NCBI RefSeq assembly: GCF_002118315.1
Contig: NZ_MTSZ01000004.1
Span: 1 to 64,000 of the forward strand
Origin: Kiloniella majae
GTDB taxonomy: Bacteria; Pseudomonadota; Alphaproteobacteria; Kiloniellales; Kiloniellaceae
DNA length: 64,000 nucleotides
Direction of reading: 5' to 3'
Shown: positions 49,898-64,000 of the stretch, one piece after another
How the letters are laid out: the number at the start of each line of letters is the position of its first letter
Numbering within the stretch: position 1 is the stretch's first letter
Notes under the pieces: generated by a model
The model's input: the letters and a program-made list of their open reading frames with translations, nothing else
Told to the model about the DNA's origin: nothing
Database searches by the model: none
Position numbers and translations under genes: made by a program

Positions 49898-50770
49898 CTA
49901 TCCCTCTAGGACAAACTTGCGCAGATCCTCTGTTACCTCTGGTTTTTCACCAAACCAGGCCTCAAATCCCGGCCTCGCCTGATGTAACAACATGCCGAGG
50001 CCATCCACAATCTTATTTCCTCTTTTCTCGGCCAGACCAAGAAGAGGGGTGACCAAAGGCGCATAAACGATATCCGTGACCACACAGGATTTTGGCAATT
50101 TATCCAGTGATAATTCCAATGGTGGTTGGCCTGCCATACCAAGGCTCGTCGTGTTTACCAGTAAATCACATCCGTTAAGCACTTCATTACGATCTTTCCA
50201 GTCAGCAACTGTAATCATGCCATCTGCGCCTGATGATAAATCGGCAGCAAGAACTTCAGCACGTTCTTTTGTCCGGTTAACCAGAATGATATTTTTAACG
50301 CCGGCATCCTGAAGGGCAACGATAACACCACGGGATGCACCACCAGCGCCCAGAACAACTGCTTTTGCCCCAAAAAAATCAAGAGAAAAATCAAGGGAGA
50401 AATCAGTGTTTTCAACATCTTGTCTCAAGTTTTCAATGAAGCCAAACGCATCAGTATTAGAGCCATAAGACCGTCCGTCTTTGAAAACGATCGTATTAAC
50501 AGCCCCAATTCGTTTCGCTAACGGATCAACTTCATCACAAAACTTCAGCGCAGCTTCTTTGTGCGGGACGGTGACATTCACACCGCCAAACCCGGAGTAC
50601 ATCAATCCACGCAAAGCGTCTTCAAAGTTTTCAGGTTCTATGGCAAGGGGCAGATAAGCTCCATCAATCCCCAGTTTCTCCAGCCAATATCCATGTAATC
50701 GCGGGGATTTTGAATGGGAAATAGGCCAACCAATTACCCCGGCCAAACGGGCTTTACCAGAAAGAATCAT
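49898..50770 (-). CDS. aroE: Shikimate dehydrogenase
   Basis: NADPH-dependent reduction of 3-dehydroshikimate in aromatic amino acid synthesis. The 290-residue product has the substrate site GWPISHSKSPRLHGYWL, the catalytic lysine in VNVTVPHKEAAL, the NADP loop VLGAGGASRGVIVAL, VNRTKERAE and a C-terminal GLGMLLHQARPGFEAWF. It starts next to the maf stop with no gap. Confidence 0.97.
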   Translation of the reverse strand: MILSGKARLAGVIGWPISHSKSPRLHGYWLEKLGIDGAYLPLAIEPENFEDALRGLMYSGFGGVNVTVPHKEAALKFCDEVDPLAKRIGAVNTIVFKDGRSYGSNTDAFGFIENLRQDVENTDFSLDFSLDFFGAKAVVLGAGGASRGVIVALQDAGVKNIILVNRTKERAEVLAADLSSGADGMITVADWKDRNEVLNGCDLLVNTTSLGMAGQPPLELSLDKLPKSCVVTDIVYAPLVTPLLGLAEKRGNKIVDGLGMLLHQARPGFEAWFGEKPEVTEDLRKFVLEG

Positions 50771-51400
50771 CTAAGCCAGAATCCTGTTATGTCGCAAAAA
50801 TGTGAGAAGAGGGAGAAGTGGAAGCCCCAGGATTGTAAAATAATCCCCCTGAATTTTATGGAAAAGTTGCGCACCAATACCTTCTAGCTGATACGCCCCA
50901 ACAGAAGAAAGGGCCTCATCCCCCAATCTATTCAAATAGGCAATAATAAAATCATCATGCAAAGCCCGCATCGTCAGGGAAGCCGTTTCGTTATGGTGCC
51001 AAAGCCTCTCGCCATTTTTCACCACACAAACCGAACATTCCAACTGATGGGTTTTCCCGGATAAAGCCTTTAGATGAGCTGCGGCATGATCCAAGTCTGT
51101 TGGTTTATCAAACCAAACCCCGTTACAGTTCAGCATCTGGTCTGCGCCAATGACAAAAGAGTTTGGATTGGTCATAGAAATTTTACGTGCTTTAAGTTCA
51201 GCAAGGGTTTCCGCAACTTGCAAGGCGGTTGCGCCTTCTGATTTTAAGGACTGTTTAACTTCATCCTCATCAATTGCGGCGGGCAGTAAATCTGCGAGTG
51301 GGACCCCTGCATTTTTTAAAAGAAGCCCGCGCGCTTTACTTGCCGAAGCAAGGATAACAGGGGTTTGATCCAAATTTTCCTGTTCTATCACCCTATTCAT
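50771..51400 (-). CDS. maf: Maf-family nucleotide pyrophosphatase
   Basis: Cytoplasmic nucleoside-triphosphate pyrophosphatase, active on modified or canonical pyrimidine triphosphates in characterised members. The 209-residue form from ATG 51400 begins MNRVIEQENLD, then VILASASKARGLLLKNAGV; the rest includes FVIGADQMLNCNG and QLEGIGAQLFHKIQGDYFTI. The frame is open another 19 codons upstream inside ppsR, but ATG 51400 overlaps the ppsR stop by eight bases, a coupled arrangement. It abuts aroE. Confidence 0.95.
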   Translation of the reverse strand: MNRVIEQENLDQTPVILASASKARGLLLKNAGVPLADLLPAAIDEDEVKQSLKSEGATALQVAETLAELKARKISMTNPNSFVIGADQMLNCNGVWFDKPTDLDHAAAHLKALSGKTHQLECSVCVVKNGERLWHHNETASLTMRALHDDFIIAYLNRLGDEALSSVGAYQLEGIGAQLFHKIQGDYFTILGLPLLPLLTFLRHNRILA

Positions 51401-52214
51401 CGGCAATGCCCATATGACGATGATAGTGTTTGATAATGGTTGCAGCTGTTTCTTCAATAGACCGACGAGTCACATCAATGATTGGCCAGCGATGCTCGTT
51501 ACAAAATTTCCGCGCCATTTTCACCTCTTCTTTAATAGATTCCAGGTGAACATAGTCTGTCTCTTCTTCATTTGAGATCATTTTTAAACGACTACGACGG
51601 ATCTGCATCAGACTTGCCGGGTCTTTTGTCAGACCAACAACCAAAGGATTACTGAGGGTCTCCAACTCTTTTGGCAAGGGGCAACCCGGAACGATAGGAA
51701 CATTCGCTGCTTTATACCCCCGGTTGGCCAGATAGATACAGGTCGGCGTTTTTGACGTTCTGGAAACCCCCAGCAACACAATCTCCGCATCATTAAGGTT
51801 TTGCGGTAACTGTCCATCATCGTGGTTCAAAGCAAAATTCATTGCTTCAATTCGATTGAAGTATTCAGAATCCAGTGTGTGTTGCAGCCCGGGTTTACCC
51901 GACATTTCTAAATTGAAATAACTGGCAAGCGCATGAATAACCGGATCAAGCACAGGAATAGAAGGCAACCCCAATCGACGGCATTCTCGGATTAAAATCT
52001 CTCTAAGCTCTTGATTAACAACTGTAAAAAGAACCGGTCCCGGTTTTTGCCGTATCTGAAGCAGAACTTTTTCCATTTGAACCTTGGTTCTGATCAAACT
52101 CCAGACATGTTCAATAGGTTCTTCCACGTTAAACTGCACCATACAAGCACGTGCGACAGAATTAATTGTTTCACCTGTGGAATCTGAAACAAGGTGTAAA
52201 TGGGTCTGCGACAT
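51393..52214 (-). CDS. ppsR: Pyruvate, phosphate dikinase / PEP synthase regulatory protein (DUF299)
   Basis: Bifunctional ADP-dependent kinase and pyrophosphorylase that switches PEP synthase or PPDK. The 273-residue form from ATG 52214 starts MSQTHLHLVSDSTGETINSV and has the P-loop GVSRTSKTPTCIYLANRG and the C-terminal KFCNEHRWPIIDVTRRSIEE. The frame extends 20 codons further to 52274 without conserved sequence. DUF299 next to hemE flanks oriC in Caulobacter; the gene order here is the same. Confidence 0.95.
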   Translation of the reverse strand: MSQTHLHLVSDSTGETINSVARACMVQFNVEEPIEHVWSLIRTKVQMEKVLLQIRQKPGPVLFTVVNQELREILIRECRRLGLPSIPVLDPVIHALASYFNLEMSGKPGLQHTLDSEYFNRIEAMNFALNHDDGQLPQNLNDAEIVLLGVSRTSKTPTCIYLANRGYKAANVPIVPGCPLPKELETLSNPLVVGLTKDPASLMQIRRSRLKMISNEEETDYVHLESIKEEVKMARKFCNEHRWPIIDVTRRSIEETAATIIKHYHRHMGIADE

Positions 52215-52523
52215 ATCTATTTCCGAATTTTTTGCCCTGCCTTTCGGCTTTTGAGCACATTTATTGTGCTTCATACATACACATTAAGTGCAAAACACGA
52301 AACCTGTCTGAACGGGAAAGCAATCTATTTTCATATTTTCTTCAAAGAAAACGTACTTCTCGTACAATAATGTTCACCTTTTCCAAAACATCCCGATAAA
52401 CACCCGGGTAAACACTCGGCAAACATCAAGTCGAATAAAAACAATAATTTACTATTTTTGATAAAATACTGTTCGGAGCGTCCCCTCAGATGTGAACAAA
52501 GTTGGGGGTAGTGCGTAAAACTT

Positions 52524-52532
52524 TGTGGATAA
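52524..52532 (-). promoter_or_regulatory. DnaA box, consensus match
   Basis: TGTGGATAA, the complement of TTATCCACA, nine of nine. Confidence 0.88.
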
Positions 52533-52542
52533 CTATAGCTAT

Positions 52543-52551
52543 TTGTCCACA
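52543..52551 (+). promoter_or_regulatory. DnaA box, one mismatch
   Basis: TTGTCCACA, eight of nine to consensus, 11 bases from the perfect box and facing it. Confidence 0.75.
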
Positions 52552-52664
52552 TCCCCCTTTTTTACACACGCTGTCCCCAAGTCACTCCCTCGTCTTATGC
52601 GACAATTCGCTGCAATACTCACACCTGTGCAAAACTTGTAAAAGGACTCCGAAACAAGAAAAAG

Positions 52665-52673
52665 TTATCCCCA
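52665..52673 (+). promoter_or_regulatory. DnaA-type box, W-box-like
   Basis: TTATCCCCA, eight of nine to the DnaA consensus and containing TCCCCA. A second TCCCCA is at 52574-52579. Confidence 0.65.
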
Positions 52674-52691
52674 TAATTAACGTTATTAAGG

Positions 52692-52732
52692 AAAAAATAG
52701 GACTCCGAGATTCGTTAACGAGTCCCTATTTT
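52692..52732. repeat. Inverted repeat in the origin region
   Basis: AAAATAGGACTC (52694-52705) and GAGTCCCTATTTT (52720-52732) pair with a single bulged base around a 14-base centre. Both arms contain a GANTC site. The left arm shares the 10-mer AGGACTCCGA with 52643-52652. It could be an origin element, a bidirectional terminator or both. Confidence 0.75.
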
Positions 52733-52922
52733 CAATCCACGATGAAATTCACAGAACAATCAGGAATCACGAAAAATTTAAATTGAAGACTTGAAGCTTG
52801 AGGACAAGTTATGAATAACTGACTAATCCTCGTGATTCACAGGGATCTACAACAACAACAAATAATTACTATTATATAGTATATTAATAGAGATAACTCT
52901 TAACGCGAGGTTCAAAGAGATC

Positions 52923-53954
52923 GTGAAAACCGAAAACAAACTCATGATGCGTGCGCTAAAAGGCGAAAAAACAGAACGCACACCTATATGGCTTATGAGA
53001 CAAGCAGGTCGTTTTTTACCTGAATACAGAAAAACAAGGGCATCAGCGAACGGCTTTCTAGATCTTTGTTATACACCTGATCTTGCAGTAGAAGTTACAC
53101 TTCAACCCATTCGTAGGTTTGGGTTCGACGCATCAATCATGTTTAGTGATATCCTCGTCATCCCCCATGCTTTAGGTCAGAAAGTATGGTTTGAAGAAGG
53201 TGTGGGACCAAAGCTAGAGCCTCTTGATTCCATAGAAGATCTATCAAAATTTAATATGGATAACCTTCATCAGGTCTTGGCACCAATGTACGAAACACTT
53301 GGTCGACTGAAAGAAGAACTTCCAAAAGAAACAACCTTAATCGGCTTTGCCGGAGCTCCCTGGACTGTCGCCAGTTATATGATTGAAGGTGGTTCTTCCA
53401 AAGATTATGCAAAAGCAAAAACCTGGGCTTATTCAAAACCGGAAGAGTTTGACCGAATTATTAATCTCGTCGTGGAAGCAACAACGAGATATCTGATCAA
53501 ACAAATTGAGAGTGGCGCAGAAACTGTCCAAATCTTTGATTCCTGGGCAGGTGTCTGGCCAGAATTTGCTTTGCGTCGTTGGTGTCTGGAACCCTGTAAA
53601 CAGATAATAGCTGGAATCAAATCAGTTTACCCAAACGTCCCGGTTATTCTCTTTCCAAGGGGAGTAGGTGACAGTTATCCTGTTTTTGCTAAAGAAAGCG
53701 GAGCTGATGCCTTGGGTTTAGATACGACTTTGTCGACATCCTGGGCCAGAGATAACATTCAATCTCACGTAACTGTCCAAGGGAATTTGGATCCTCTTGT
53801 TCTTGTTGCTGGTGGTGAAATATTGGAAAAATCCATTGAAACCATTATGAGTGATCTGAGCAGTGGCCCCTTTATTTTCAATCTTGGCCATGGCATTGTC
53901 CCGCAAACACCAATTGAGAATGTCGAAAAAATGATAAAGCTCGTCAGGGGCTGA
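52923..53954 (+). CDS. hemE: Uroporphyrinogen decarboxylase
   Basis: Decarboxylates uroporphyrinogen III to coproporphyrinogen III in heme synthesis. The 343-residue product has the signature PIWLMRQAGRFLPEYRK, the catalytic Asp in FSDILVIPHALG, GFAGAPWTVASYMIEGG and VQGNLDPLVL. Start is GTG 52923. It is the first gene right of the presumed origin, runs away from it, and is followed 14 bases later by hemJ. Confidence 0.97.
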   Translation: MKTENKLMMRALKGEKTERTPIWLMRQAGRFLPEYRKTRASANGFLDLCYTPDLAVEVTLQPIRRFGFDASIMFSDILVIPHALGQKVWFEEGVGPKLEPLDSIEDLSKFNMDNLHQVLAPMYETLGRLKEELPKETTLIGFAGAPWTVASYMIEGGSSKDYAKAKTWAYSKPEEFDRIINLVVEATTRYLIKQIESGAETVQIFDSWAGVWPEFALRRWCLEPCKQIIAGIKSVYPNVPVILFPRGVGDSYPVFAKESGADALGLDTTLSTSWARDNIQSHVTVQGNLDPLVLVAGGEILEKSIETIMSDLSSGPFIFNLGHGIVPQTPIENVEKMIKLVRG

Positions 53955-53968
53955 ATTTAAAACAGGAA

Positions 53969-54421
53969 ATGTCAAAAATGGGTGGATTTTTAGGCGAGGG
54001 ATATCTCTGGATAAAGGCTCTGCATATTATTTCTGTCATCTCGTGGATGGCAGGATTGCTCTATCTTCCACGTATTTTTGTCTATCATACGCAAGTTCCT
54101 GTTGGCTCTGAACGATCTGAGGTCTTTAAAGTTATGGAGCGGAAGCTTTTTCGCTTCATAATGAACCCGGCAATGATGGCCAGTTGGCTTTTTGGTATTT
54201 TGCTGGTTTTAAATATTGAAGCTTATAGTGATGGCTGGTTTCACGGCAAATTTACCTTCTTGATTGCCTTGACTGTTTTTCATGAAGTGGCTGGAAAGTG
54301 GATGAAAGCTTTCCAAGTGGACAAAAACACTAGAAGCGAGCGTTTCTATCGCTATGCTAATGAAATTCCGACGATTTTAATGATTTTGATCGTGATTTTT
54401 GCAGTTGTTAAACCGTTTTAA
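53969..54421 (+). CDS. hemJ: Protoporphyrinogen oxidase HemJ
   Basis: Membrane heme-synthesis enzyme oxidising protoporphyrinogen IX. The 150-residue product has four helices and the conserved ALHIISVISWMAGLLYLPRI (heme-ligand histidine) and VFVYHTQV-like region seen here as IFVYHTQVPVGSE, with FMNPAMMASWLFGILLV. It forms a two-gene unit with hemE. Confidence 0.94.
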   Translation: MSKMGGFLGEGYLWIKALHIISVISWMAGLLYLPRIFVYHTQVPVGSERSEVFKVMERKLFRFIMNPAMMASWLFGILLVLNIEAYSDGWFHGKFTFLIALTVFHEVAGKWMKAFQVDKNTRSERFYRYANEIPTILMILIVIFAVVKPF

Positions 54422-54455
54422 GCGTAAAATTTAAATCAAAAGAGAATTCTTTTAC

Positions 54456-54482
54456 TTGACTTCCTTTTTGAGGTACTATAAT
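54456..54482 (+). promoter_or_regulatory. Sigma-70-type promoter for rho
   Basis: TTGACT (54456-54461) and TATAAT (54477-54482) with a 15-base spacer, a little short. Transcription would leave a leader of about 170 bases before the rho ATG. Confidence 0.65.
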
Positions 54483-54663
54483 TCACCCCGCTAGCAAACG
54501 TGGGCCAACTTCAACAGCCCGTTACTCCGATTTACATTGCAACAGGATATCAGGTCTTTGAGGATCGTCGAAAATAATGACGAAGCCTTTTATAAATCTT
54601 AACTTGTATGTTGCATCCTTATCATCTCGTTCATTTATTAACTGAACCAAACTTTTCCATCAT

Positions 54664-55920
54664 ATGAACTTACAAGATCTCAAAGTAAAAAGTCCCGCAG
54701 AGCTTCTTAAGCTTGCAGAGGAACTTGAAGTAGAGAACGCCAGCACCCTGCGTAAGCAGGACATGATGTTCGCCATCCTCAAACAAATGGCTGAGAACGA
54801 TGTGCCTATTTTTGGCTCGGGCGTTTTGGAAATTTTACAAGATGGGTTTGGTTTTCTCCGCGCGCCGGAATCAAATTACCTGCCAGGACCTGATGATATC
54901 TATGTCAGCCCAAGTCAGGTAAGGCGTTTTGGTTTAAGAACGGGGGATACTGTCGAGGGCCAAATTCGGGCACCGAAAGATGGCGAACGCTATTTCGCCC
55001 TGTTAAAAGTTAATCAGATTAATTTTGATCAGCCGGAATCTTCGCGACACAGAATCAATTTTGATAACCTGACACCGCTTTATCCGGATGAAAAACTCAA
55101 GCTTGAGCTTGATGATCCAACCAAAAAAGACATGACGACCCGCGTGATTGACCTGGTGACACCACTGGGTAAAGGTCAACGTGCTTTGATCGTAGCGCCG
55201 CCAAGAACCGGTAAAACCGTCTTGATGCAGAATATAGCGCAGTCGATTGTAGCAAATCATCCCGAAGTTTTCCTTATTGTTCTTCTGATTGATGAACGTC
55301 CGGAAGAAGTCACAGACATGGCACGTTCTGTGAAAGGTGAGGTTGTTAGTTCAACATTTGATGAACCTGCTCATCGCCACGTTCAGGTAACTGAAATGGT
55401 TCTGGAAAAAGCAAAACGTCTGGTTGAACACAAAAAAGATGTTGTCATTCTTCTTGATTCAATTACCCGTCTTGCCCGTGCGTACAACACTGTTGTTCCA
55501 AGTTCAGGTAAAGTTTTGACCGGTGGTGTCGATGCGAACGCCCTACAGCGTCCTAAACGCTTCTTTGGTGCTGCACGTAACATCGAAGAAGGTGGTAGCC
55601 TCACGATCATTTCCACGGCTCTTATCGATACTGGTAGCCGTATGGATGAAGTGATCTTTGAAGAATTTAAAGGTACAGGTAACTCTGAAATCGTTCTGGA
55701 CCGTAAACTTTCTGATAAACGTACCTATCCTGCGATTGATATCAGTAAATCCGGAACACGTAAGGAAGAATTGCTGGTCGATAAGGCAACACTCAGTAAA
55801 ATGTGGGTTCTTCGTCGTATTCTTACACCAATGGGTGTGACAGATTCTGTTGAGTTCCTGGTGGATAAGCTGAAAACATCCAAAAATAATGATGAATTCT
55901 TTGATTCAATGAACCAATAA
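54664..55920 (+). CDS. rho: Transcription termination factor Rho
   Basis: Hexameric RNA helicase that ends transcription. The 418-residue product opens [20 protein letters not shown], has the cold-shock-like RNA-binding domain with [20 protein letters not shown], Walker [16 protein letters not shown], Walker [16 protein letters not shown], the Q/R loops ([19 protein letters not shown]) and an ordinary C-terminus. The long leader may serve Rho autoregulation, as known in enteric bacteria. Confidence 0.98.
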
Positions 55921-55937
55921 TCGGTTTTCTGGACAAG

Positions 55938-55978
55938 AAAAAGGGCTGCCAAATAAAACTGGTGGCCCTTTTTTTATT
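55938..55978. terminator. Terminator between rho and the quinone reductase gene
   Basis: GGGCTGCCA (55943-55951) pairs with TGGTGGCCC (55960-55968), two G-U pairs included, around an eight-base loop. A-run left and T-run right, so it can work for both convergent genes. Confidence 0.88.
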
Positions 55979-56002
55979 TAAGCTCTGTACTTGCCATCAT
56001 GT

Positions 56003-56986
56003 TCAATGTTCTGGGACAAGAATAGTTGATCCCGTGGTTTTTCTTGATTCCAGATCTTCATGGGCTTTGCGTGCGTCATATAAGGCGTAGCTTTGGTTCA
56101 CATCAATCTGTATTGCGCCTGAAGCAATTGCCTGGAACAGAGTATTTGCTGAGGCAACCATTTCATCATGAGTTCCGCAATAGTGCGCCAAGCTTGGACG
56201 GGTAAGATAAATTCCGCCTTTTGCATTGAGAATAAGGGGTTCTATGGCAGGGACCGGGCCTGATGCATTACCAAAGGTTACCATTGTGCCACGGACTTTC
56301 AGACAGTCGAGAGAGCCTTCGAAGGTGTCTTTGCCTATTGAATCATAAACAACGTTTACACCCTTACCATCTGTAATATCTTTTACCCGGTCGACAAAAT
56401 TTTCGGTTTTATAATTAATAGTGTGGTGACAGCCCTTTGTTTTGGCTATTTCGGCTTTTTCTTCTGACCCTACCGTGCCAATGACTGTTGCTCCCAAAGA
56501 GTTGAGCCATTGAGTAGCAAGGGACCCAACACCGCCAGCAGCGGCATGAAAAAGAACAAAATCACCAGGTTGAACACAATAGGTGCGTCTAATGAGATAC
56601 TCGGTTGTCATTCCTTGCAACATTACCGAGGCAGCTTCTTCGTCAGAAATTCTCTCAGGGATAAGAATAACTTTATCTGCAGGGATTATTCTATGTTCCG
56701 CATAGGAGCCTATGGGGCCTGTTCCATAGGCAACCCTGTCTCCTATATGAAGATCGGTGACACTGGGACCAATAGCTTCAATAATGCCAGCAGCTTCCAG
56801 ACCTATACCAGAGGGAAGTGATGGTTGCGGATAGAGACCTGTTCTATGATAGACATCAATAAAATTAAGTCCGATGGCTGTTTGTTTAAGCCTTATTTCA
56901 CCTTTACCAGGCTTGCCAATCTCAATGTCTTCGTAATGTAGAACTTCCGGTCCGCCATATTCGTAAAATTTAATGCCTTTGTTCAT
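56003..56986 (-). CDS. NADPH:quinone reductase (QOR-like MDR family)
   Basis: Zinc-free medium-chain dehydrogenase of 327 residues. Key blocks: YGGPEVLHYEDIEIG, the QOR signature LNFIDVYHRTGLYP, LPSGIGLEAAGIIEAIG and the cofactor loop HAAAGGVGSLATQWLNSLGA. No zinc ligands are present, fitting the quinone reductase branch. It probably reduces quinones or enones. Accessory gene between rho and mnmE, convergent with rho. Confidence 0.92.
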   Translation of the reverse strand: MNKGIKFYEYGGPEVLHYEDIEIGKPGKGEIRLKQTAIGLNFIDVYHRTGLYPQPSLPSGIGLEAAGIIEAIGPSVTDLHIGDRVAYGTGPIGSYAEHRIIPADKVILIPERISDEEAASVMLQGMTTEYLIRRTYCVQPGDFVLFHAAAGGVGSLATQWLNSLGATVIGTVGSEEKAEIAKTKGCHHTINYKTENFVDRVKDITDGKGVNVVYDSIGKDTFEGSLDCLKVRGTMVTFGNASGPVPAIEPLILNAKGGIYLTRPSLAHYCGTHDEMVASANTLFQAIASGAIQIDVNQSYALYDARKAHEDLESRKTTGSTILVPEH

Positions 56987-57041
56987 AATACACCTGTATG
57001 TGTTATTAAAGCTCAGTTTTTTTGGTTTATTTATTTGTTAT

Positions 57042-57536
57042 TTAAAGCCCGGGAAGATTTGGCTGATTATCTTCAAAATGTTTATAACCTTCGAGAAATA
57101 AGAGTTCTTTTTTAGATTTTCCACCTTCGCCACCTGAAAAACCACCAAGCACCTGATTTCCTGCAATAACACGATGGCAGGGAATAATGATTGGAATAGG
57201 GTTGGCACCACATGCACCGCCTACTGCTCTTGCAACTGAGCTAACCTCATGGGCAATATCCCCATAGGTTTTTACCTCACCATAAGGAATACGGTACAAG
57301 GCTTGCCATACATTCTTTTGAAAATCTGTTCCTTTTGGGGCTAACGGAAGGTCATCAAAATTATTCCGTTTTCCGGTAAAGTATTCTTCTAGCTGCTTTT
57401 TACATTTTAAAAGTAATGGCGTAGAGGTTTGTTCATAAAAACTTTTATCACTAATCCATTGTAATCGAATGATTTTATTATCTTCTTCCGCTATATCCAA
57501 ATAGCCTTGTGGCGAAGTAAAGGTTAAGTGATGCAT
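57042..57536 (-). CDS. ogt: Methylated-DNA-[protein]-cysteine S-methyltransferase
   Basis: Suicide repair protein that takes methyl groups from O6-methylguanine. The 164-residue product has the acceptor site IIPCHRVIAGNQVLGG (Cys near residue 125) and the DNA-binding FQKNVWQALYRIPYGEVKTY. It lacks the Ada AdaA domain, so it is the constitutive Ogt type. Minus strand, 55 bases downstream of the quinone reductase start region, which reads the same way. Confidence 0.95.
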   Translation of the reverse strand: MHHLTFTSPQGYLDIAEEDNKIIRLQWISDKSFYEQTSTPLLLKCKKQLEEYFTGKRNNFDDLPLAPKGTDFQKNVWQALYRIPYGEVKTYGDIAHEVSSVARAVGGACGANPIPIIIPCHRVIAGNQVLGGFSGGEGGKSKKELLFLEGYKHFEDNQPNLPGL

Positions 57537-57689
57537 AGCAGTTCCTGGTTGTCAGACGCTTATAATAGGATTAGGAAAAACGTGTGTATTGCATGGTAAC
57601 GTTTTTTATTGTTTCGCGATATTATAACAGCATATTTGGTGATGTTTGGTAGAGAATACCAACCGCTAAAATAATTAAGGGCACAATAA

Positions 57690-58436
57690 GTGAAAAATTC
57701 TGATCAAAATCTTTCATCATGGAACTTCAAAAAGTTATTTATGGGAAATCTGATTGTTGGTTTAGCGGTTTATTTTTTTATAGACCATGAATTTAAAACG
57801 CCTTGGGATGAACAGATATTTTTCTATTTAAACGGTTCTTTACAAGAAGGTCGCACTCTTTGGAATAATTATTGGGCCTTCACCAATAGCAAAATTTTTG
57901 ACAGTTTAAGCGGTTTATTTCTCGCGTCTCTCTGTCTTTGGTACATTTTGCTGAACAGGGAAACTTCTTTTCAAGAACGTCTTGCCAGAGTTTTTCTTTT
58001 AGTCATTTCTGTTGTTATAACGATGATTATAATTTCTAGAGGTTTTGAGCTTTATTATCACCAAAGTCCATCACAGGTTTTAAGCCCTTTTATTAATATA
58101 AATGATCTTGTTTCGTGGATAGAAGTCAAAACAGGGACAAGAAAATCATTTCCTAGCGATCATGCCGCTATTTCTTTTATTTCTGTTATTTTCATGTGGC
58201 GATATTTTGGAACTTCTTATGGGATTCTCGTAAGTTGTTTTGCGCTTATTAATGCTAGTCCGAGGCTTGTTGGGGGAGGGCACTGGTTTGGCGATGTTGC
58301 TATTGGCGGTGTTTTTTTAGCACTTATGGTTACGATCTGGATGATTTATACGCCAATGCTCACTCTAATCCGTAAAGTTGTTCATTGGTTTTTTGTCAAA
58401 GAACCCTTAGCTAGTCTTAGTAAAAATTGGAATTGA
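57690..58436 (+). CDS. PAP2-family phosphatase, membrane
   Basis: Inner-membrane phosphatase of 248 residues with about five helices. PAP2 motifs: GTRKSFPSDHAAISF (PSDH in place of PSGH) and SPRLVGGGHWFGDVAIGG (R-x5-H-x3-D with PR in place of SR). Start is GTG 57690 with AAGG upstream. Likely substrates are lipid A phosphates, undecaprenyl diphosphate or phosphatidic acid; motifs do not decide. It is AT-rich relative to its neighbours and precedes a parS-like site. Confidence 0.88.
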   Translation: MKNSDQNLSSWNFKKLFMGNLIVGLAVYFFIDHEFKTPWDEQIFFYLNGSLQEGRTLWNNYWAFTNSKIFDSLSGLFLASLCLWYILLNRETSFQERLARVFLLVISVVITMIIISRGFELYYHQSPSQVLSPFININDLVSWIEVKTGTRKSFPSDHAAISFISVIFMWRYFGTSYGILVSCFALINASPRLVGGGHWFGDVAIGGVFLALMVTIWMIYTPMLTLIRKVVHWFFVKEPLASLSKNWN

Positions 58437-58454
58437 ATTATTTCGCTACAGAAA

Positions 58455-58470
58455 TGTTTCCCGTGAAACA
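58455..58470. promoter_or_regulatory. parS-like site, one mismatch
   Basis: TGTTTCCCGTGAAACA, 15 of 16 to the parS consensus TGTTTCACGTGAAACA; the difference breaks the central symmetry. It lies 19 bases after the PAP2 stop. Confidence 0.72.
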
Positions 58471-58555
58471 AAAGTTGATATAAAAATTTGTAATTCTTTT
58501 CCTGTAAGTAGGGTATGGTACTGGGAACAGTTTGACCTAAATACAGGAAATACCG

Positions 58556-58807
58556 ATGAAAATCACTTTTGATATAGACTGTACTCCAGAAGAAGCTCGT
58601 CAGTTTTTGGGACTTCCTGACGTTTCTGAACTTCAAAAAGAAGCAATAGAAGAAGTTAGAAAAAGAATGTTGGAAACTATTCAATCAAGTGACCCCGAAG
58701 CTTTAATGAAAACCTGGATGCCAGCTTCTATGCAAGGCTTCGATCAAATGCAAAAGATGTTTTGGTCACAATTTTCACAAGATGGTTCAACAAAAACTAC
58801 CAAGTAG
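58556..58807 (+). CDS. DUF6489-like small protein
   Basis: A small acidic protein of 83 residues beginning MKITFDIDCTPEEARQFLGL, then PDVSELQKEAIEEVRKRM and ALMKTWMPASMQGFDQMQ, and ending in a hydrophilic tail. This pattern matches the alphaproteobacterial DUF6489 family as I remember it. An AGGAAA ribosome site precedes the ATG. It lies between parS-like site and mnmE, where homologues are common near rsmG/parA. Function unknown. Confidence 0.78.
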   Translation: MKITFDIDCTPEEARQFLGLPDVSELQKEAIEEVRKRMLETIQSSDPEALMKTWMPASMQGFDQMQKMFWSQFSQDGSTKTTK

Positions 58808-58944
58808 TTTTCATTATTTTTCCTTTAAATATATTCGTGCTGCTTTGATCCTTTAGTTTTATAGAAGTTCTGCAGTTCTGCTATGTTATAAAGCATTTTG
58901 ACCTGTTGTTTGTCTGAGGCTAATGTGCGAATTCCTCTTATATG

Positions 58945-58970
58945 CGAGCTCTGGTATTCGAGCTCTGGTA
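58945..58970. repeat. 12-bp direct repeat upstream of mnmE
   Basis: CGAGCTCTGGTA at 58945-58956 and again at 58959-58970, two bases apart, 34 bases before the mnmE ATG. Each unit includes GAGCTC. Possible regulator site or chance duplication. Confidence 0.6.
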
Positions 58971-59004
58971 AATTGAGCATGAAACTCTTATTGGTTTAGA
59001 CAAG

Positions 59005-60354
59005 ATGGCTTCCGAAACAATTTTTGCCCTATCAACTGCGCCGGGACAGGCAGGCGTTGCCGTAATCAGAATATCAGGTAGCAAAGCTAAAGTTGTTTTG
59101 GAAGAGATGTCATCTTCTTTTCCTGAACCACGTGTTGCTGCACTGATAAAGTTGTTTGATCCCGAAGATAAGGCTGAGCTTGATCGATGTTTGGCGCTTT
59201 GGTTTCCTGGGCCCGGAAGTTTTACGGGCGAAGATGTTGTGGAACTTCATCTTCATGGGGGACGTGCGGTTGTTGATGGTACTATTGAGGCTTTGGCTAA
59301 ATTGCCAAATTTTCGCCCGGCTGAAGCCGGTGAATTTACCCGTCGAGCATTTGATAATGATAAACTCGATTTAACAGAGGTAGAGGGTTTATCAGATCTT
59401 ATTGCGGCTGAAACAGAAGCCCAAAGAAAACAAGCCATACGCCAAATGGATGGCGAGCTTTCCAAATTGGTAGAAGGTTGGCGAGATCGCTTGGTTCGCA
59501 TGTTAGCCTATTTAGAGGCTGAAATTGATTTTCCAGATGAAGAGCTGGAAGAGGGTATTTCAACCCAGGTAAAGCACAACATAGAGCAGCTAAAGAGTGA
59601 TATTAAACATCATCTGGATGATAGCCATCGCGGCGAGCGGTTACGAAATGGTATTAAAATAGCCATTGTTGGTCCCCCTAATGCGGGTAAATCGTCACTT
59701 CTAAACGCCCTGGCCCGACGTGAAGTTGCTATTGTTTCTGATGTTGCCGGTACAACAAGAGATATTATCGAGGTTCATTTAGACCTATCTGGTTATCCTG
59801 TTATTGTCTCTGATACAGCCGGCCTCAGAGAAATAGAAGAAAATACAACAGACGGAATTGAGCTCGAAGGAATAAGACGCGCCAAGTTACATGCTGAATC
59901 TGCTGATTTATGTTTGGCAGTTTTTGATATTGAGGATAGAGATAACTTCGATCAAGAAACGCTAAAACTGTTAGATAAGACAAGTAATTTTGTCGTGATT
60001 AATAAATGTGACAAAACTGAAGAAAACCCATCTATTCCTGTTTCTGATTTTGATGTTACTAAAATATCCACCAAGTCAGGTGAGGGGATTGATAGCCTAT
60101 TAGAAAAGCTGAATACATGGGTTATTTCTAATATGGGACAATCAGGTAGTTCTTCCGGTATTACACGGCAGCGTCATAGATCTGCTTTGATAGAATGTTT
60201 GGACTCACTTGGTCGATCTCTTGAGACTGATCTTCCAGAACTTTGTGCAGAAGATTTACGTCTTGCTACACGTTATCTTGGTAGAATTACAGGAAAAGTA
60301 GATGTTGAAGAGCTATTAGATGTTATTTTCCGTGATTTTTGCATTGGAAAATAG
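59005..60354 (+). CDS. mnmE: tRNA uridine-5-carboxymethylaminomethyl(34) synthesis GTPase MnmE
   Basis: With MnmG, installs (c)mnm5 on the wobble uridine of several tRNAs. The 449-residue product has the N-terminal formyl-THF-binding domain (LSTAPGQAGVAVIRISG, FTGEDVVELHLHGG, AGEFTRRAFDNDKLDLTEV), a G domain with GPPNAGKSSLLNAL, AGTTRDIIEV, DTAGLRE and NKCD, and the invariant C-terminal FCIGK with its cysteine. Confidence 0.98.
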   Translation: MASETIFALSTAPGQAGVAVIRISGSKAKVVLEEMSSSFPEPRVAALIKLFDPEDKAELDRCLALWFPGPGSFTGEDVVELHLHGGRAVVDGTIEALAKLPNFRPAEAGEFTRRAFDNDKLDLTEVEGLSDLIAAETEAQRKQAIRQMDGELSKLVEGWRDRLVRMLAYLEAEIDFPDEELEEGISTQVKHNIEQLKSDIKHHLDDSHRGERLRNGIKIAIVGPPNAGKSSLLNALARREVAIVSDVAGTTRDIIEVHLDLSGYPVIVSDTAGLREIEENTTDGIELEGIRRAKLHAESADLCLAVFDIEDRDNFDQETLKLLDKTSNFVVINKCDKTEENPSIPVSDFDVTKISTKSGEGIDSLLEKLNTWVISNMGQSGSSSGITRQRHRSALIECLDSLGRSLETDLPELCAEDLRLATRYLGRITGKVDVEELLDVIFRDFCIGK

Positions 60355-60393
60355 GCTGATTTAGCTTACATAAGTGAAGTGTTTTGCGAATTA

Positions 60394-60409
60394 TGTTTCA
60401 CGTGAAACA
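60394..60409. promoter_or_regulatory. parS site, perfect
   Basis: TGTTTCACGTGAAACA, identical to the ParB-binding consensus, in the mnmE-yqaE intergenic region. Confidence 0.93.
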
Positions 60410-60509
60410 GGCCATATAGTTATGAATATGGCTGAAAAATAAGTTGAGAATAAAATCGCTTATTATTAACTCATCAAAAGTGTGAAGAGATTTCTTAAGG
60501 GAAAAGAGA

Positions 60510-60698
60510 ATGCGTTTACTATTGGCTTTACTTATTCCATGGCTTCAGTTTTTCACAATTGGAAGACCATTTGCCGGAATCATCTGTCTTATTTTGCAGA
60601 TCACTCTAATTGGTTGGCCTGTGGCTGCGATATGGTCTGTTTATGCTTTGAGTCAATACAATACGGATCAAAAAATTAAAGATGCTCTGGGCAAATAA
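60510..60698 (+). CDS. YqaE/Pmp3-like membrane protein
   Basis: A 62-residue protein almost all hydrophobic: MRLLLALLIPWLQFFTIGRP forms the first helix, IICLILQITLIGWPVAAIWS the second, and a short polar tail (QYNTDQKIKDALGK) follows. The two-helix layout resembles the YqaE/Pmp3 family, whose members affect membrane potential or salt tolerance in yeast and plants. AAGGGA precedes the ATG. It lies between mnmE and mnmG. Confidence 0.8.
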   Translation: MRLLLALLIPWLQFFTIGRPFAGIICLILQITLIGWPVAAIWSVYALSQYNTDQKIKDALGK

Positions 60699-60755
60699 TC
60701 TTTAACTTAGTTCTGAGTATTTTTTGTATTCAAAAATATAGCAAAGCGATCAGCT

Positions 60756-62624
60756 ATGAAAAACTATGATGTTATTGTTGTTGGGGGCGGACACGCTGGA
60801 ACAGAAGCTGCTGCTGCTGCTGCCAGGATGGGGGCTGCGACGCTTCTTGTCACCCATAAAAAATCGACTATTGGGGTTATGTCTTGTAATCCTGCCATAG
60901 GCGGTCTTGGCAAAGGACATCTTGTGAGAGAAATTGATGCGCTTGATGGGCTGATGGGTAAGGCTATTGATCGGGGTGGCATTCAATTTCGCGTTTTAAA
61001 TAGAAGTAAGGGTCCTGCTGTCCGTGGACCGAGAGCACAAGCCGATCGCAAGTTATATAAAGAAGCTATTCAGGATCTCTTGGATGATCAGGAAAATCTG
61101 ACAATTCTTGAAGCACCAGTTGAAGACCTTATTCTTGATGAAAATGATGTTTGTTGTGGTGTAATTATCGCTTCAGGGGAGGAAATTTTTTCCTCAGGGG
61201 TTGTTTTAACAACGGGAACATTCTTAAACGGTTTAATTCATCTTGGTAAAAAACAAATTCCTGCGGGGCGGGTAGGGGATGAACCTGCAATTGGGTTATC
61301 AAAAACACTTTCGCGATTTGGTTTTGAATTAGGTCGTTTAAAAACCGGTACACCGGCTCGATTGGATACGCGTACAATTGATTATAGTAATTTGATGGTT
61401 CAGCCTGGGGATACGCCTCCTGAACCATTTTCCTATATGACAAAGGAAATTACACAGAAACAGGTAGCTTGCCACATTACCTATACCAATGTTGATACTC
61501 ACGATATTATTGCTGAAAATATTGAGCAATCACCGATGTATTCCGGCCAAATTGAAAGTAAGGGACCACGGTATTGTCCTTCTATTGAAGATAAGGTTGT
61601 ACGCTTTAAAGAGAAAGATCGTCACCAAATCTTTTTAGAGCCTGAGGGACTGGACGATGTAAATGTCTATCCAAATGGAATATCAACATCACTTCCTGAA
61701 GATGTCCAAGAAGATTTTCTTAAAACAATTCCTGGTCTTGAGAAGGCAAAGATTCTTCAACATGGCTATGCGATTGAATATGACTATGTTGATCCGCGCG
61801 AACTACGGCCGACATTGGAAACTCTGAAAGTTCGGGGACTTTATTTTGCTGGTCAGATTAATGGGACAACTGGTTATGAAGAAGCGGGCGCACAAGGCCT
61901 CATTGCGGGCGTGAACGCTGCTTTGAAATCTCAGGGATCAGAACGAGACTTTGTATTGGATCGTGCTGATGCATATATGGGGGTCATGGTTGATGATTTG
62001 GTGAGCCTGGGGGTTACTGAACCTTACCGAATGTTTACCAGTCGTGCTGAATATCGTTTGAAACTTCGTTCGGATAATGCAGATCAACGCCTAACGCCCA
62101 TCGGACTTGATATTGGATGTATTAGAGAAGACCGAGCTTCTGTTTTTAATAAAAAAATATCAGAGCTTTCAAAAGCAAGAGCTTTTGCAAAAGAACACTC
62201 TGCTACCCCTAATGAGTTGATTAGCTATGATATCAATGTAAATAAGGATGGGCAAAGAAGGTCAATTTTTGACTTACTCCGTTATCCAGATGTCACTATA
62301 GAGGTTCTAACTAAAGTATGGCCTGAACTTTCGCAATTTGATCAGATTATTGTGGAACAGCTTGAAATTGACGCTAGTTATGCCGGTTACATTGAGCGTC
62401 AGGATGCTGACATCAGAGCTTTTAGAAAAGATGAGGCGCTTAAGCTACCTGCTAACTTTGATTATGCATCTGTGCCAAGCCTATCTAATGAAATTGTTCA
62501 GAAACTTAATCAATCAAAACCCGATACATTAGGTGCTGCTTCTCGTATTTCAGGTGTTACACCTGCTGCATTGGTTGCTTTATTAAGATATGTAAGAAGA
62601 TTAGATAAAAATAATGTTGCTTGA
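60756..62624 (+). CDS. mnmG: tRNA uridine-5-carboxymethylaminomethyl(34) synthesis enzyme MnmG (GidA)
   Basis: FAD- and NADH-binding partner of MnmE, 622 residues. N-terminal dinucleotide site [19 protein letters not shown], then [20 protein letters not shown] (conserved cysteine), [36 protein letters not shown] and the C-terminal helical domain binding MnmE. Overlaps rsmG by 11 bases. Confidence 0.98.
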
Positions 62625-63246
62625 TACCACTGGAATTGACGCCTTTAAAAAACACATTTCTGTTTCACGTGAAACAGAGGATAAATTGAAATGTTATGCT
62701 GATCTTCTTGTAAAGTGGAACAAGGCCATAAATTTGGTGAGTAAAAATACTTTACCAGACTTATGGACCCGCCATTTTTTAGATTCAGCGCAACTTATTA
62801 AATACCTTCCAGAGACGAACCATAAAAAAACAATTGTTGATTTTGGTAGTGGTGCAGGTTTTCCAGCTCTTGTTCTTGCTATATTGGGAGTAGGGGAAGT
62901 TCATGCGATGGAATCTGATCTTAAAAAATCAATGTTCTTACGTGAAGTTTCACGTGAAACAGATGCAGGGTTAATTGTTCACAATAACCGTATTGAAAAG
63001 CTCGAACCCTTTGCTGTTGATGTTTTTACAGCAAGGGCTTTTGCCCCACTTTCTAAAATTTTTGATTTCTCCCAAGCCTTCTTGGATGCTTCAAAGGCTG
63101 AAAAAAATCCCGAATTTTTGCTTTTAAAAGGGCGAAATGTAGATGAGGAATTGACCGAAGCAGAGAAAAAGTGGACTATGAAAGTGTCGAGGTACAATTC
63201 TTTGTCTGATGATAATGCGACAATATTGAACCTTAAACTTCTATAA
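62614..63246 (+). CDS. rsmG: 16S rRNA (guanine(527)-N7)-methyltransferase RsmG
   Basis: SAM-dependent enzyme that methylates G527 of 16S rRNA. The 210-residue product contains [13 protein letters not shown], the SAM loop [16 protein letters not shown], the [16 protein letters not shown] segment and [13 protein letters not shown]. Two parS-type sites lie inside it and are both read as V-S-R-E-T. Start ATG 62614 overlaps the mnmG end by 11 bases. It is 16 bases upstream of parA. Confidence 0.97.
62661..62676. promoter_or_regulatory. parS site, perfect, inside rsmG
   Basis: TGTTTCACGTGAAACA within codons for S-V-S-R-E-T near the rsmG N-terminus. Confidence 0.92.
62946..62961. promoter_or_regulatory. 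parS site with perfect 14-bp core, inside rsmG
   Basis: AGTTTCACGTGAAACA; only the first base differs from consensus, and the GTTTCACGTGAAAC core is intact. Encodes V-S-R-E-T. Confidence 0.88.
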
Positions 63247-63262
63247 CTTGGGGGGATTGGTC

Positions 63263-64000
63263 ATGTCAGTACAAGATATGGATTCAATTTCAAGTAAAAA
63301 AAAACGTGAAGCTAAGGTCTGGTCCATTGCAAATCAGAAGGGTGGGGTTGGTAAAACGACAACAACTGTTAATCTGGCAACAGCTTTAGCCGCCTGTAAG
63401 AAAAAGGTTTTGATTATCGACCTGGATCCTCAGGGTAATGCGAGTACTGGATTAGGTGTAGAACCTGATGCCCGGCAGCAAAGCATTTACCAGGTTATGA
63501 TTGAAGGCTTGCCTATCACGCGTGCTGTTAGATCAACAGATGTTCCCCGGATGCATGTTATTTCTTCTGGCGTGGAACTCTCGGGAGCTGAACTGGAGCT
63601 TGTGAACCTTGCAGAGCGCGAATTCAAATTGGCGAATGCTATCGGGCCTCTTTTGAATCAGTTTGATTATATTTTGATTGATTGTCCTCCAGCACTTGGT
63701 CTGTTGACCTTGAATGCGCTGGTTGCTTCTGATGCTGTTCTTGTACCCTTACAGACAGAGTTTTATGCCTTGGAAGGACTATCTCACCTACTTCGTACTA
63801 TTGATCGTGTGAAGAGGGGGCTTAATCGCCGTCTTCAAATTCAGGGTGTCGTTCTTACGATGTATGACAGACGCAACAATCTTTGTGAGATGGTTGCAGC
63901 TGATGTTCGGGCATTTTTGGGGGAAAAGGTGTTTAACACTGTTATTCCACGTAATGTAAGGGTGTCTGAGGCTCCTTCGCATGGGAAGCCTGTTCTTTTG
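63263..64000 (+). CDS. parA: Chromosome partitioning protein ParA (Soj), 3' end outside window
   Basis: Walker-type ATPase that segregates origins together with ParB bound to parS. The visible 246 residues, with no stop by position 64000, start MSVQDMDSISSKKKREAK and contain the deviant Walker A IANQKGGVGKTTTTVNLA, Walker A' region DLDPQGNASTGLG, and Walker B FDYILIDCPPALGLLTLNAL. A polar 18-residue N-terminal extension precedes the domain. parB should follow just beyond the window. It lies 16 bases after rsmG, the usual order. Confidence 0.97.
   Translation, partial: MSVQDMDSISSKKKREAKVWSIANQKGGVGKTTTTVNLATALAACKKKVLIIDLDPQGNASTGLGVEPDARQQSIYQVMIEGLPITRAVRSTDVPRMHVISSGVELSGAELELVNLAEREFKLANAIGPLLNQFDYILIDCPPALGLLTLNALVASDAVLVPLQTEFYALEGLSHLLRTIDRVKRGLNRRLQIQGVVLTMYDRRNNLCEMVAADVRAFLGEKVFNTVIPRNVRVSEAPSHGKPVLL

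Follow-up and report, generated by a model that had tools for sequence, protein, structure and literature searches.

The 708-base gap between ppsR and hemE in this Kiloniella species is, on the basis of its sequence, almost certainly the chromosomal origin of replication (oriC), and it occupies the same place as the Cori of Caulobacter. The original prediction had assigned oriC to this gap, and the assignment is supported by a minimum in GC skew, a parABS locus, and a conserved core. The window analyzed here spans positions 1-64,000 of contig C33 (354,334 bases), which belongs to a 4.38-Mb draft genome in 56 contigs. For box clusters and for the expected number of GANTC sites, a sample of 794,334 bases of this genome (∼18%) was employed. 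The find is well supported but ordinary, since it is located where related bacteria have their origin. A literature search for Kiloniella and replication origin returned no paper, and thus, as far as that search shows, an origin of known kind and place is new for the genus. The analysis places the origin of the genus Kiloniella and gives its conserved anatomy.

The gap extends from position 52215 to 52922 and is bordered by ppsR (the DUF299 or Kinase-PPPase gene; 51393..52214, minus strand) and hemE (52923..53954, plus strand). With the gene starts used, it is 708 bases in length and gene-free, as had been claimed. Because the reading frame of ppsR continues without a stop as far as an ATG at 52274, the gene could start within the gap. 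A frame of 94 codons at 52502-52786 is disrupted in relatives by indels that are not multiples of three (10 bases are absent from four of nine rows), and the gap was therefore taken as non-coding. A search of the window against Rfam at the gathering score gave no matches. The flank on the ppsR side contains ppsR, maf, aroE, coaE, a dnaQ-like gene, and secB. From a class sample of 192 genomes, 133 had a match to ppsR, and 129 were examined after leaving out the genome itself, the partial matches in G104 and G110, and the match at a contig end in G241. The two genes are adjacent and divergent in 110 of these; in the other 19, two of which provided only a short stretch, no hemE in that arrangement was found within the stretch read. 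In one metagenome contig, in which the match to ppsR is terminal, the distance between hemE and ppsR reads 2366 bases. That the origins of Caulobacter and Rickettsia lie by hemE is in print: hemE and a COG1806 gene are reported to flank both Cori and the Rickettsia origin (PMC1914354). The Kiloniella gap shares this location, between hemE and the DUF299/COG1806 gene, with the hemE-type origins. The two flanking genes are the same as those described for Rickettsia prowazekii, and in Caulobacter crescentus Cori the same flanks are reported to enclose an AT-rich region as well as DnaA boxes (PMC1914354).

A skew minimum located elsewhere had been named as one of the observations that would speak against oriC. 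When the test was run on the whole 354-kb contig, the outcome favored oriC, with the cumulative GC skew lowest at 53,166, just within hemE. All five ten-kb windows in positions 1-50,000 are negative, the window at 50,001-60,000 has a value of +0.012, and the 30 windows from 60,001 onward, the last of which is short, are all positive. The 1.3-Mb contig C1 is negative in 14 of 14 samples, and the other twice-sampled contigs each keep one sign; these values cover ∼18% of the 56-contig draft, and the left arm within the contig is only 52 kb. The switch in skew expected of a hemE-type oriC is thus found in C33, and it is also found in G036, a single-contig genome from the same order, where the skew is -0.016 to the left and +0.024 to the right of hemE. 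There, a division into two arms that switch at hemE accommodates 19 of 20 samples, the exception being a value of +0.003 at 3.78 Mb.

To the right of the gap lie four copies of a palindrome that we take to be parS. Two of these are perfect (60394..60409 and 62661..62676), and two carry one mismatch (58455..58470 and 62946..62961). Across the genome these four, spanning 58,455-62,961, are the only sites with zero or one mismatch, and three others are found at two mismatches. The genes mnmE, mnmG, and rsmG (59005..63246, plus strand) are followed by one for a ParA-type ATPase (63248..64000, plus strand), which extends beyond the end of the window, and parB follows (C33:64159-65094, or 159-1094 of locus L003). 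All told, parA, parB, and the four parS sites are positioned 5.5-12 kb to the right of the gap.

The perfect DnaA box and the two eight-of-nine boxes of the original prediction were located as described. The perfect box, TTATCCACA, lies at 52524..52532 on the minus strand within an invariant 18-mer (52517-52534), and the others are TTGTCCACA at 52543..52551 and TTATCCCCA at 52665..52673, both on the plus strand, the latter in the invariant block 52662-52672. Two TCCCCA motifs, likewise predicted, begin at 52574 and 52668, the second of which belongs to TTATCCCCA. A weak box, TTGTTCACA (52491..52499, minus strand), matches at seven of nine positions and at eight of nine in three relatives. Finally, a box-like sequence, TGATTCACA (52833..52841, plus strand), adjoins the AT tract and matches TTATCCACA at seven of nine positions and the Caulobacter G-box, TGATCCACA, at eight of nine. 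It overlaps the GANTC site at 52834-52838, and in both rows of K. laminariae it is replaced by CGACTCACA. In Cori, by contrast, the strong boxes are reported to be TGATCCACA (PMC4285127); the Kiloniella gap has TTATCCACA as its strong box and carries TGATTCACA beside the AT tract.

As in the hemE-type origins of other alphaproteobacteria, the boxes are clustered. The gap contains three with at most one mismatch versus 0.29 expected from the density of the window itself. There are 255 such boxes in the 794,334 bases examined, and three of them fall inside 200 bases at only two places, one of which is the ppsR-hemE gap. The other, on C1 near 1,205,018 (L031:5018-5123), displays three one-mismatch boxes in ∼105 bases between two genes. 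Its 20-kb sample shows no switch in skew and has the same sign as all other C1 samples, and the cluster is perhaps a DnaA-titrating or regulatory site. The dnaA region (285.5-289.5 kb of C33) was considered as the origin and rejected; it holds two one-mismatch boxes and no skew switch. Note that in one set of loci (L112-L153, many titled Reyranella) the hemE gaps of ∼310-346 bases mostly contain no box with at most one mismatch and have three to eight GANTC sites.

The genome set compared includes eight of the same genus. An alignment of nine Kiloniella rows, namely the window and eight others (a ninth locus, L081, which is without upstream sequence, was dropped), delineates a conserved core from 52484 to 52897 in which 59.9% of the 414 columns are invariant. 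The corresponding value for 52215-52483 is 4.8%, a contrast that is enlarged by two rows that align poorly there. In addition to the 18-mer surrounding the perfect box and the block at 52662-52672, the invariant blocks are 52595-52610, 52642-52650, 52802-52818 (GGACAAGTTATGAATAA), 52837-52856, 52858-52874, and 52890-52897. The first of these, the 16-mer TTATGCGACAATTCGC (52595..52610, plus strand), is invariant in the nine Kiloniella sequences and has a single exact copy in the genome. It was rejected as a genome-wide motif, given 31 places with at most three mismatches (17 forward and 14 reverse) versus 29 for the control read backwards. The predicted inverted repeat is indeed present, with GGACTC at 52700-52705 and GAGTCC at 52720-52725.

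The AT-rich tract noted next to hemE is borne out by the stability calculation. The 50-mer of lowest stability in the gap, at 52854..52903, is a candidate DNA unwinding element, and the gap thus has the easily melted tract of a hemE-type oriC. Only 0.03% of the 50-mers in the contig are as unstable, and six sites elsewhere in it have still lower stability. The order at the right end of the gap is TGATTCACA at 52833, then GGGATC, and then the least stable 50-mer at 52854. This arrangement of a box, a short GC-rich spacer (here GGGATC), and an AT tract follows the same order as that reported for E. coli R1 and Helicobacter ts2 (PMC8235120). The words TCACAGGGATCWACAACA are found exactly in 21 of the 318 loci compared; many of the 21 are the same genomes counted twice, and some are from Pelagibius (L087) or are same-family loci.

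Under a published rule for DnaA-trios, at least three trios lie within 16 bases of a box having at most two mismatches (PMC8287927). The box at 52833, by the AT tract, fails this rule and in that respect differs from the R1 and ts2 type. Two of the 11 boxes in the gap pass, those at 52456 and 52810, against a background of 25% of 1359 boxes in the contig. The box at 52456 lies in the unconserved part of the gap, and that at 52810, while conserved, is oriented away from the AT tract and has no CTA. The search for DnaA-trios in the gap gave no convincing match. The loose IHF consensus WATCAN5WTR has no match in the gap, where only 0.38 would be expected. These two results, together with the second triple-box place on C1, are points against oriC.

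From the arrangement of these elements we infer the following sequence of events. DnaA-ATP would bind to the strong box at 52524 and to the weaker boxes around it and would then extend in the direction of hemE, across the box-like TGATTCACA (52833). The AT tract at 52854-52903 would presumably melt, and the helicase would be loaded there. ParB, bound to the parS sites located 5.5-10 kb away on the right, may then separate the new origins.

The genome encodes CtrA, with a match over the cut-off to the NCBIfam model NF045991. Sites of the CtrA type had been described as not evident in the gap, and for exact sites this stands: TTAA-N7-TTAA is absent from the gap and from all nine of the Kiloniella gaps. 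The sites that mark a CtrA-controlled, Cori-type origin were thus not found, and control by CtrA cannot rest on exact sites in the gap and was rejected in that form. Cori, on the other hand, carries an IHF site together with five sites for CtrA; consensus searches found neither kind in the Kiloniella gap. Likewise, the criteria applied to the R. prowazekii origin (PMC1914354) include sites for CtrA and IHF, neither of which was found here by consensus. It is unlikely that CtrA still controls the origin through degenerate sites that a consensus search misses. Loose matches to TTWW-N7-TTWW do exist in the gap, as does a one-mismatch site at 52900, but the former are at the level of chance (2 versus 1.03 expected), the latter is missing from both rows of K. 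laminariae, and all nine Kiloniella gaps are without an exact site. Among the 110 class gaps, an exact site occurs in 12. The only exact TTAA-N7-TTAA in the window, at 51244-51258, is within the maf gene. A lack of CtrA sites has precedents and is not in itself novel: the chromosomal origin of Sinorhizobium meliloti, a precedent independent of hemE, is reported to be without CtrA motifs or CtrA binding even though ctrA is present (PMC4433202), and a relative paucity of CtrA sites has been reported for intracellular relatives (PMC1914354). With the Kiloniella gap there is a second type of origin in alphaproteobacteria that has no exact CtrA site although the genome carries ctrA.

The original prediction was silent on GANTC (CcrM-type) sites, of which the gap contains six, all in the core. 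They are positioned at 52645..52649; at 52701, 52709, and 52720, all three inside the inverted repeat (52700..52725); at 52764..52768; and at 52834..52838, inside TGATTCACA. Five of the six are kept in nine of nine Kiloniella sequences, and that at 52764 is kept in three of nine. At two sites the middle base varies and the site is nevertheless kept, with T, C, or G at 52709 and T or C at 52834. The position of 52834 is occupied by GANTC in 10 of the 13 rows of a broader alignment. The six sites compare with 1.20 expected from 794 kb of the genome itself, in which GANTC ranks last in abundance among 16 such palindromes, and with ∼1.8 expected from the intergenic density of the contig, 2.57 per kb, a value derived from a crude ORF caller that covers most of the gap with spurious ORFs. 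Windows of 439 bases with at least six sites make up 0.22% of C33. Observed and flank-expected numbers are 54 and 13.5 in eight Kiloniella gaps, 59 and 14.4 in 13 gaps of other Kiloniellaceae (one of which, L093, has no GANTC at all), 35 and 11.2 in nine gaps from the order, and 234 and 36.6 in the remaining 45; these group counts are not independent because the rows are related. Four invariant columns are found in five of the six sites of the gap versus 27.9% of the 5-mer starts in the core (binomial ∼0.008, ignoring relatedness). Sliding the five sites along the core gave 20 of 20 fixed columns invariant at their own position and at no other of 221 offsets, but this test was discarded as circular since the five had been chosen for being kept.

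These sites invite the reading that GANTC methylation, and not CtrA, licenses the firing of the same origin: a freshly replicated, hemimethylated origin would be prevented from firing until, late in the cycle, CcrM acts on the sites in the three-site inverted repeat and in the box-like sequence next to the AT tract. This is quite unlikely. The excess and conservation of GANTC in the core are consistent with it, as is the presence, along with ctrA, of a gcrA-like gene (which passes the Pfam cut-off but not that of NCBIfam) and a ccrM-like gene with a RAMA domain, which scores 620 bits, under the 830 of the Caulobacter model. The GcrA motif YGAKTCK, however, is absent from the gap (0.30 expected), and two other places in C33 hold more GANTC per 439 bases. 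Furthermore, in 94 class gaps from genomes with a ccrM match, GANTC occurs 253 times versus 154.0 expected from base composition and 110 as the mean of seven same-composition palindromes, and in 14 gaps from genomes with no such match it occurs 37 times versus 19.6 and 15, respectively. The two groups do not differ in GANTC richness (Mann-Whitney P 0.73), with two of the 110 class gaps set aside as ambiguous for ccrM and a missing ccrM possibly due in part to draft incompleteness. Thus, methylase sites are clustered and conserved, as at a Dam/SeqA-like origin, but the cluster does not track the methylase across genomes, and its dependence on CcrM is not borne out. Caulobacter without ccrM is also reported to initiate normally, and Cori itself is reported to have several GANTC motifs (PMC3973325). 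The idea is not new, for a model of Caulobacter assumes that firing takes place from a fully methylated Cori (PMC2217572), and in Agrobacterium CcrM is reported to affect ori2 and not visibly ori1 (PMC11514494). The conserved GANTC sites are the best visible candidate for control in place of CtrA sites; under the methylation reading, they would give alphaproteobacteria an equivalent of Dam/SeqA at a DnaA-dependent origin. The densest GANTC region of C33 is at the end of the contig (353473-354334), with nine sites in 439 bases and seven in the last 630.

That the conserved core is simply the promoter and leader of hemE, with the chromosome starting elsewhere nearby, is very improbable: part of the core is directly upstream of hemE and promoter-like matches are present, yet these are no more numerous than in shuffles (3 versus 3.0 expected), and the skew minimum at 53166, the DnaA-box cluster together with parABS, and conservation extending 440 bases upstream all argue for oriC instead. 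Outside of the core, the segment at 52434-52465 matches C55:42476-42507 (L002:1501-1532) over 32 bases at 91%. The C55 copy is AT-rich, is preceded by a tRNA-like sequence and followed by an integrase-like gene, and may reflect an attachment site or chance AT-richness; the match was taken as chance.
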